A DNA stretch of 9,033 nucleotides, taken from Bacteroidales bacterium. Its GTDB lineage: Bacteria; Bacteroidota; Bacteroidia; Bacteroidales; P3. The position numbers were made by a program, and so were the translations under genes. The notes under the pieces were generated by a model, which saw nothing but the letters and a program-made list of their open reading frames with translations, made no database searches and was not told the origin of the DNA. The stretch lies in contig JAEEIS010000002.1 in NCBI GenBank assembly GCA_016281475.1, positions 1-9,033 on the forward strand. Reading direction: 5' to 3'. This document shows positions 3,213 through 6,200 of this stretch, in pieces (position 1 is the first letter of the stretch; each line of letters starts with the position of its first letter).

Positions 3213-6200
3213 ATGAAATCCAACGGACACTCAGTTATATTATTGTTATTCTGTCTATTGCTATGCCGTGTCGGCAACACTCAGGCGCAGGATGATTGGA
3301 ACGATGTGAGGGTACACAGCACGGGTAAGGTGGCTTCGCACGTGAATGTCATCCCCTACGCCGACGAGGAGGATATTGCCGAACTGAAGTACCAGGCATC
3401 GCCCTACTACCGCAGCCTCAACGGGTCGTGGAAAATCAAGGTGGTAGAGAACCCCGAGGCGTGCCCCAAAGGTTTTTACGAGGCGGGATTCAACGCCGAG
3501 CATTGGGACGACATAGACGTGCCGGGCAACATTGAGCTGCAACTGGACCATAGGGGGAAGCCTTTTGGCACGCCGGTATATACGAATATGCACAACGAGT
3601 TTGAGTCCAACCCGCCCTACGTCCCCACCGAGTTTAACCCAACGGGCTGCTATGTGCAGGACTTCCAAGTGCCTGAGAGCTGGAGGGGACGGCATGTGTT
3701 TATTAAGTTCGGAGCGGTGAAGTCGGCGATGTACCTCTACATCAACGGCCACAAGGTGGGCTACTCCGAGGACTCGAAGACTCCCGCCGAGTGGGAGATT
3801 ACAAAATACATTCATCCCGGTCGGAATCGGTTGGCGGCAAAGGTGATACGTTTCAGCGACGGCAGCTATCTGGAATGCCAGGACATGTGGCGGATGAGCG
3901 GCATCACACGCGACGTGTGCCTCTATTCCACCCCCAAGGTGTATGTGACGGATTATAAGGTGAGCGCCCACCTCGACGAGCGCAACGACAACGGCCTGCT
4001 GGAGCTGGAGGTGGAGCTGTCGACGGCACTGACGCAGCCCATGCGGCTGGAGGCGGAACTGCTGGACGCGCAGGGCGAACGGGTGTGGCGGCAGGAGCGC
4101 GAACTGGGGTTCCAAGAGTGGCTAGCCACATTTGCTGAGAGCGAGGGTAAGGTGCCGCAGGTGCATCCGTGGACGGCCGAAACGCCCTATCTCTACACCC
4201 TCATCCTCCGACTGAAAAATATGAGTTCGACTACGGTGGAGACGCTGGGCTGCAAGGTGGGATTCCGCAATATCGCCATCAAGGAGGTGGCATACCGCGC
4301 CGACGACACGGTGATGACCACCCAGCAGCTGTGCGTGAACGGGGTGCCTGTCACCATCAAGGGCGTGAACCGTCACGAGCATAGTGCCTTGAAGGGACAA
4401 TATGTGTCGCGCGAGGAGATGGAGTTCGACATCATGCTGATGAAGCATCTGAACATAAACGCAGTGCGCACTTGCCACTATCCCGACGACGAGTACTGGT
4501 ATGAGCTGTGCGACCGCTACGGGATGTATGTGTGGGACGAGGCGAACGTGGAGTCGCACGCCCAGGGCTATGGCGAGCAGAGCCTCGCCAAGAAGGAGGA
4601 GTGGGTGGAGCCCGTGATCTATAGAGTGAACAACATGTATCGCCGCGATAGGAACTACCCGTGCGTGATAGTGTGGTCGCTGGGCAACGAATGCGGCAAC
4701 GGTATCGTGATGGAGCGCGCCTACCGCTATCTGAAGTCGCAGGACGACAGCCGCCCCGTGAGCTACGAGCGCGCGGTGCTGGATTGGAACACCGACATCG
4801 TGGGGGTGATGTACGCGGGTGTGGACTACCTGAGCGACTACTGCCGCGAATGGCGGAGGGTGTATGACCGGTTTGAACGTGTTAATGAGCCAATTCGTGA
4901 ACATGTTAATCAGACTGACGAATTAACGAATTCACAAATTGACACGTTCTCCCGTCCGTTTATCATGGTGGAGTACTGCCACGCCATGGGCAACAGCATG
5001 GGCGGGCTGAAGGACTATTGGGACACCATCGGCAAGTATCCCCAGCTGCAGGGCGGCTTTATCTGGGATTGGGTGGACCAGAGTTTTGTGATGAACGGCA
5101 AGCAGATACAATATACTCTCGAACATGAGAAAGACTCGGCATGGTATGCCGTGGGAGGCGACCTCGGGAGCCTGCCCGGAGTGCAGGACGACGATGCCTT
5201 CTGCGCCAACGGCATCGTGGCCAGCGACCGCCGACCCCATGCCCACGCCAACGAGGTGCAGCAGGTGTATCAAAACCTCAACGTCACCCAGCACCACGAT
5301 GCCAACGGCGGGGAATACTATATGCTGAAGAACGACTTCAACTTCCGCGATGCCTGCGAGTTTGTCTGCCACTACAAGATTTACTCCTCGCTGCGCGACA
5401 CGCTTTATAGCGACACGCTCCATCCCCACCTGCCTGCCGGCGAGAGCTGCCGCCTAAATCTGCGTATGCCCGAAATTGAGCCTATGGGAGGAGAACGGTT
5501 CTTCGTCCGATTCAACTTTGTGGGCGACAGCTACGAGGTGGGCGACCCCTACGACTACGGCACCTCGTGGACCCTGCACGAGAACAGCCACGACGAGTTT
5601 GAGATGACCAGCTTCGACGCGCCTGTGGACAGCATTGAGCTGCCATCCGTCGCATCTAAGTCATTTCGCTGCCACCACGACAAGACGAGCAACACCGTCA
5701 CCATCGCCTCCCCAACCCTTTTCGCACTCACCATTGATGCCAACACGGGCCACATTACCCAATATGCTTATCGCGGCGAGGAACTGCTTGTGCGTCCCCT
5801 GCGGTGGAACTTCTGGCGTCCGCCGACGCTCAACGACCTTGTAGACCACTACGGTGCACGGGCATGGGAAGGACTGGACGACCTCACCGCATCGCCCATC
5901 AGCTGCCGAACCCAGTATATCGGCGAGCCCGACCGCATGGCAGAGGTGGAGCTGCTGCTGGAACTGACCAGCCCCGAAGGGCGCACCATGACCCTACGCG
6001 AGATTGTCGAGGTTGACTGCGAAGGCAAAATGCAACTGAGCTATGCATTCCATCCCCGCGGCAACTACCGCACCCTGCCCAAACTGGGCATACAGCTGGG
6101 TGTGGACAGCAGCTGCCGACAGGTGGAGTGGTGGGGCAACTACTACGAGACCTACCCCGACCGCAACGAGGCCAGCTGGATTGGACATCATACCGCCACG

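Follow-up and report, generated by a model that had tools for sequence, protein, structure and literature searches.

Positions 4875-4949 of the window, which is the whole 9,033-nucleotide stretch analysed here, lie within a GH2 beta-galactosidase-like gene and are very probably a member of a dispersed hairpin repeat family; the family itself, its boundaries, the open frame and the replacement of loop sequence are observed. The family is mainly intergenic in a Bacteroidales genus and strongly avoids genes, and it looks like a dispersed repeat family able to add new pieces to proteins.

A hairpin repeat read in frame in a GH2 gene

The genes, catalytic codons and repeats of the window are as follows (strand given where assigned).

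210-1661: gene for an LRR/DUF285 protein
1664..1701, plus strand: 5′ half of the outer intergenic element (profile match, model positions 1-38)
1719..1777, plus strand: second intergenic element, between the halves of the outer one (profile match, model positions 6-60)
1782..1817, plus strand: 3′ half of the outer intergenic element (profile match, model positions 39-74)
1820-2770, minus strand: rsgA
3213..7160, plus strand: GH2 beta-galactosidase-like gene carrying the element, 1315 amino acids from the ATG at 3213; longest open reading frame from 3135
4689..4691, plus strand: codon of the presumed acid/base E493, motif SLGNE
4875..4949, plus strand: octad hairpin element, 75 bases (profile match, fold, translation)
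4875..4904, plus strand: 5′ arm of degenerate octads (read from element copies and profile)
4905..4918, plus strand: core GTTAATCAGACTGA, a short-loop variant of the family core (comparison of copies)
4919..4949, plus strand: 3′ arm of GAATTAAC-type octads (window sequence and consensus translation)
4971..4973, plus strand: codon of the presumed nucleophile E587, in a motif of 10 residues
7196..7240, plus strand: heptad repeat in the spacer that separates the GH2 stop from the next gene (7201-7260 matches in relatives' samples)
7243-8328: CNNM/CBS gene
8343-9032: start of another gene

The element comprises 25 codons with no stop, corresponding to residues 555-579 if the ATG at 3213 is taken as the start; the stop-free reading given in the original prediction was upheld by translation. 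A profile of 13 copies, all from relatives (12 outside genes and one from PheT, the window being excluded), matched 4875-4949 over model positions 1-75 with E=1.6e-16, aligning end to end with the exact coordinates predicted, although the match is not fully independent because those copies were originally found by similarity to the window. The strand 4866-4958 folds into one nested hairpin of -29.2 kcal/mol against -17.1 (sd 3.1) for shuffled sequences (z=-3.84; 0 of 200 shuffles equally stable). The predicted single nested hairpin was thus recovered, with stem lengths somewhat unlike those first described. The 11-base word ATTAACGAATT, said to occur four times and far above chance, was indeed found four times in the window against 0.00 expected, a count reached by none of 200 shuffles, and one of the four lies within 4875-4949. 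The G+C content of the element is 0.373 versus 0.591 in the remainder of the gene.

When the window was scanned as 300 sixty-base segments, at least three matching places in a relative's sample were obtained at 1-180, in the LRR gene and at 1621-1860, 3151-3210, 4891-4980 and 7171-7260. Apart from segments straddling gene ends beside spacer repeats, and from 3151-3210 if the GH2 start is at 3135, the region 4891-4980 was the only one of these inside a gene other than the LRR gene. The spacer 1662-1819, between two convergent genes, is almost filled by one element nested in another, split element.

A dispersed and mainly intergenic family

Copies are built of degenerate octads, with a 5′ arm of GTGTTAAT type, a core TTAGTC..GACTAA enclosing a variable loop, and a 3′ arm of GAATTAAC type. 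Apart from one of 132 bases, the 41 distinct full-length copies measure 72-92 bases. Core and ends are common to the copies over their full length, unlike a simple tandem array with no fixed core or ends. In BLAST searches, 64 of the 99 genomes of a related Bacteroidales genus matched the 75-base element at E≤1, several matches being 72-79% identical over 73-75 of the 75 positions, and 25 of these places were read with their flanks. The relatives' genomes are drafts, and all copies beyond the window come from them.

The position of copies relative to genes was assessed in 40 stretches, 20 each from G039 and G080 (795,651 bases; coding fraction 0.79 and 0.77, respectively, with a simple caller of open reading frames). 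Of 66 sites at E≤1e-3, 62 were intergenic, four lay over a gene edge and none was inside a gene. Many of the stretches were chosen on contigs with known hits, which biases the density of sites upwards; the position of sites relative to genes should be little affected. By spacer type, the sites comprised 44 tandem, 9 convergent and 4 divergent, with 9 at stretch ends, against a background of 157 tandem, 48 convergent and 49 divergent spacers of at least 60 bases. A role as terminator was considered and rejected, no concentration of elements being seen in convergent spacers (9 of 66 sites). No match to one strict 20-base pattern was found in viral contigs, a result of little weight.

The original prediction had postulated a gene-invading palindromic family in this Bacteroidales lineage and had proposed a search of its relatives with the element. 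That search, run on relatives, did yield further copies, and the postulate is borne out by their spread over genomes, by the 66 sites found within 796 kb and by the in-frame copies elsewhere described below.

Copies inside other genes

A frame-blind scan covered 81 loci found at the DNA level, some of them overlapping, with 136 sites. An in-gene call required an open reading frame of at least 120 amino acids with coding signal on both sides, and only sites in PheT and in a membrane protein passed. Besides the window copy, these were loops 1 and 2 of PheT, in G005 and G057, and partial copies in the membrane protein of G054 and G044. At all three sites the 3′ arm is in the window's frame, and in the PheT copies the entire element is. 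Further copies were found in ThrE (G029, G080, G095), in RimO (G119) and in PriA (G057 with the query peptide, G063 on inspection of the locus); these are ascertained for frame, since the query peptide was itself in the window's frame. PurL of G054, G062 and G069 carries a half copy that is read antisense to the element. By eye, the PurL linker (L308, L309, L310) shows a heptad-like tract followed by the antisense half octad element.

PheT, PriA, RimO, ThrE and PurL were assigned with Pfam or NCBIfam; ThrE and PriA (the latter a fragment at the end of a contig) scored below the NCBIfam cut-offs. The membrane protein had no Pfam or NCBIfam hit; we take it to resemble YfhO. The PheT with the element is the sole PheT match at E≤1e-10 both in G005 and in G057, and therefore the element-loaded gene presumably serves. 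G057 also has another PriA-like gene, about 50% identical (G057:C12:51507-52676), besides the element-bearing PriA fragment, possibly owing to contamination of the bin. Two further candidates were discarded: L266, a ketoacyl synthase by reading, proved to be ordinary conserved sequence, and L302 sits before the likely start and was excluded from the count.

Relatives free of the copy are observed for PheT, PriA, RimO and ThrE. Residues 342-366 of PheT are missing in G063, G025, G095 and G054. At loop 2, the copy-free proteins of G113, G063 and G025 (91-95% identical) have NEQEG or DENEG, that of G029 has NEEEG and that of G119 a longer loop of its own, while loop 1 is plain in G113 and G063 and holds GGAGAGT-type heptads in G025. 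ThrE is plain in G020, G100, G096, G058 and G042. In the sister genomes G023 and G029, the ThrE of the former (L369) has only GECVKP and that of the latter keeps the element (L321:15429-15503); GECVKP looks like an element remnant, which suggests loss by internal deletion. Among ten PriA loci (two further loci being left out of the comparison), the element was present in two (G057, G063), 10-12 plain residues stood in its place in seven, and one was unmatched by the pattern. For RimO, 11 relatives were compared; G039 and G054 are plain, five were unmatched by the pattern, and by eye the loop holds 9-base ACTATAG-like units in G067, G025 and G063 and TTTCAAC-type heptads in G113.

No target-site duplication was seen by eye at five loops of four genes and four intergenic pairs, a set in which no exact empty site occurs. 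In GH2, PriA and loop 1 of PheT the element stands where native residues are missing; these are therefore replacements, which simple insertion fails to explain.

The GH2 loop and the catalytic residues

By analogy with E461 and E537 of LacZ, E493 is taken to be the acid/base and E587 the nucleophile. Their spacing of 94 residues, as given in the original prediction, was confirmed in the protein. Among 117 of the 120 listed GH2 homologues in which it was measured, the spacing is 64 in 44 and 89 in 28. The predicted value of 69 without the insert proved to be arithmetic only, the orthologues having a native loop and a spacing of 89. Nor was the insert delimited by clean edges on comparison with homologues: the orthologues have about 21 residues where the window protein has 26, and the sequence of the loop is replaced. 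None of the GH2 homologues shares the 25-residue peptide, among the matches listed, which agrees with the expectation that it would not be common to them.

In P0002-P0007 the spacing is 95, 99, 132, 98, 143 and 136, respectively, and the loops contain other repeat-like peptides (by eye, from protein only). One homologous gene (L107, in G039; 88% identity) carries here a 111-base insert that gave 16 alignments at E≤0.01, two of them overlapping, in the G039 sample; of 30 control windows of the same gene, 28 gave none and two gave one. By eye, heptad- or octad-like tracts occupy the same loop in L108, L127 and L133-L136. Different repeats thus appear to have settled in the GH2 loop on more than one occasion.

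An AlphaFold2 model of residues 345-760 (mean pLDDT 84.6) places the insert between a helix (545-550) and a strand (583-588), with E587 near the C-terminal end of the strand. The pLDDT of the insert is below 50 at residues 565-572 and mostly about 75-79 by block means in the remainder. The best PDB matches, 3bga and 3dec, have about five residues at the loop against 35 in the query. In TIM barrels, helix-to-strand loops lie on the face opposite the active site. Since the loop precedes the nucleophile strand of the barrel, it should, by barrel topology, face away from the active site. The element had been described as next to the active site, which holds in sequence only; in the fold it occupies the helix-to-strand loop before the nucleophile strand. 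A role of the loop in the active site is unsupported by the model and was set aside.

Reading frame and divergence

In the window's frame the profile consensus contains two stops, one per arm. Across the six frames there are two to four stops each, two other frames also having two. The window copy is free of both consensus stops of its frame; in the second octad of its 3′ arm, TTCAC stands against TTAAC in the family consensus, so that the consensus TAA is absent. What allows the element to be read in frame in the GH2 gene is the length of this copy, 75 bases, together with the absence of the two consensus stops. Among 37 full-length copies outside genes, three are open in the window's frame, and the counts for the other frames are 0 and 2 (sense) and 1, 3 and 2 (antisense). 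Most copies could therefore not enter a gene unchanged. All four in-gene full-length copies (two sites in two genomes) are open in the window's frame; with open copies few and stops present in all frames, stops alone fail to explain the common frame. The family, its boundaries and the in-gene copies are independent of the statement on stops and frame, and confidence in them is therefore unaffected by the two-stop consensus.

Divergence was compared between inserts and flanks, in each case over few sites. In ThrE, pN was 0.083-0.168 in the insert versus 0.000-0.038 in the flanks, the insert still being open. Between the PriA genes of G057 and G063, the insert had a pN of 0.176 versus 0.366 and 0.116 in the flanks, and was thus not faster than both; its pS of 0.263 was below the 0.751 and 0.649 of the flanks, which would be consistent with separate, more recent arrivals or with exchange among copies.

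Repeat turnover and origin of the copies

Repeats of different kinds were found at corresponding sites of related genomes. One spacer, with flanks 90-92% identical, holds an octad hairpin in G115 (L294:1498-1581) and a heptad hairpin of like size in G027 (L250:693-791). Between the sisters G023 and G029, the number of octads differs downstream of the GH2 gene and the kind of repeat differs at another spacer. Such turnover may proceed by movement, by recombination between repeats or by rewriting in place. We infer that the copies originate elsewhere in the genome and arrive by a mobile or recombinational route. The GH2 copy occupies the loop between helix and nucleophile strand, and, because the length of this loop already varies among relatives, the element is most likely translated as a passenger that hardly affects catalysis; the GH2 protein is presumably made and active and the insert near-neutral. 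More broadly, and with a little less than an even chance in our judgement, certain loops could repeatedly receive several unrelated hairpin or tandem families that exchange at one site, in genes as well as between them. No description of repeat-family exchange at one protein loop was found in the literature, among the matches listed.

Growth in place would instead have octads in a permissive loop expand by slippage and become palindromic by template switching. The arms are indeed tandem octads, their number differs at one spacer between the sisters G023 and G029, no target-site duplication was seen, and the relatives' loops hold other short tandem units. We nevertheless consider this origin rather unlikely, since the window copy fits the 75-base profile end to end and the core is common to unrelated sites, and neither the same core nor the same ends would be expected from growth in place. 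A selected, functional role of the 25-residue loop, with a likeness to the repeat in composition only, appears highly improbable: the full-length profile match, the G+C of 0.373 versus 0.591 and the unrelated repeat-like peptides of the closest relatives at this place all argue against it, even if the length of the loop is most variable in the window's own clade, with spacings of 94-143 in P0001-P0007.

Mobilisation by a Y1 (RAYT) transposase, with the element being of REP/BIME type, is distinctly improbable. Y1_Tnp was detected in 63 of the 99 genomes of the genus and showed a rank correlation of 0.31 (p=0.002) with an element count in which matches at E≤1 were pooled with first-look candidates from 17 genomes. 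Against this, Y1_Tnp was not found in 5 of 18 element-rich genomes, G039 included, and is still present in 17 of 35 genomes without a match, figures that come from drafts and are uncorrected for kinship; the length of the element is also unlike that of REPs. The link to a Y1 transposase is weak, and the family is tied to no transposase.

Relation to known repeats

Among gene-invading palindromes that are translated, those of Rickettsia and Wolbachia are the most familiar; the reduced intracellular genomes of these bacteria lend themselves to an explanation by weak selection. The Rickettsia palindromic elements (RPE) are 105-146 bases long and occur both in intergenic regions and in frame in conserved proteins (PMC2229807, PMC10969869), and a Rickettsia Gmk with an insert was shown to be translated and active, with a changed affinity for its substrate (PMC2229807). 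On these descriptions, both families consist of short palindromic repeats that occupy intergenic regions and are also read in frame within conserved proteins unrelated to one another. The Wolbachia palindromic elements are apparently similar. Two features of the RPE type, a palindrome able to form a long stem-loop and many copies both intergenic and in frame in unrelated conserved genes, were observed here. The Bacteroidales family differs in its length of 72-92 bases, in its unrelated host lineage and in its arms of tandem octads, and the protein loops that carry it hold other kinds of repeats in relatives. The family works like RPE, the likeness concerning behaviour.

Correia/NEMIS, ERIC and other MITEs are also small non-autonomous repeats, and some of them, including MITEs of enteric bacteria, form in-frame fusions with genes (PMC2229807). 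The Bacteroidales family differs from these in that it showed no target-site duplication. Dispersed intergenic hairpins are a feature shared with REP/RAYT systems, but REPs are 20-40 bp (PMC3733652), versus 72-92 bases here, and the Y1 link is not firm. Coding palindromes in the mitochondria of Nematomorpha (PMC6649704) are likewise inverted repeats within protein-coding genes; they belong to animal mitochondria, unlike this dispersed bacterial family.

Finding the same behaviour in a gut Bacteroidales genus, where essential genes are involved and the same loops hold different kinds of repeat, makes it possible to test how repeats enter reading frames in close species with and without the copy. 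It also means that an insertion in a loop of a metagenomic enzyme can derive from a repeat, which calls for caution before functional specialisation is read into it. If certain loops are recurrent landing places, repeat turnover would continually supply new loop sequence to housekeeping enzymes, namely PheT, PriA, RimO, PurL and GH2. No gene-invading palindrome in Bacteroidales was found in the literature, among the matches listed.

Cyanobacteria have heptanucleotide intergenic repeats. Tandem 7-base intergenic repeats, TAACTGA, are described for Beggiatoaceae (PMC4679880). Both resemble the present family in being short tandem units between genes, but form direct arrays, whereas the Bacteroidales units build hairpins and also occur inside proteins.

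Other repeats of the window

The heptad repeat within 7171-7260 stands immediately before the start of the CNNM gene. For 7201-7260, the samples of two relatives gave 49 matching places each, the highest number in the window, and heptad tracts of the general kind seen at 7196..7240 also occur in the same GH2 loop of some relatives. Short G+C-rich palindromes (TCCCTCCGGGA, CCTCTTCGAGG) follow one another at 1-180; they were matched at 1-4 places in the samples of relatives and are perhaps another kind of intergenic repeat. In the last open reading frame, 8689-8711 is inverted relative to the spacer sequence 2807-2852 and is possibly a second repeat inside a gene; the sixty-base scan gave fewer than three matching places for it in the relatives' samples. 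Finally, rsgA contains at 2660-2695 an 18-base tandem duplication encoding RLRGNYRLRGN.
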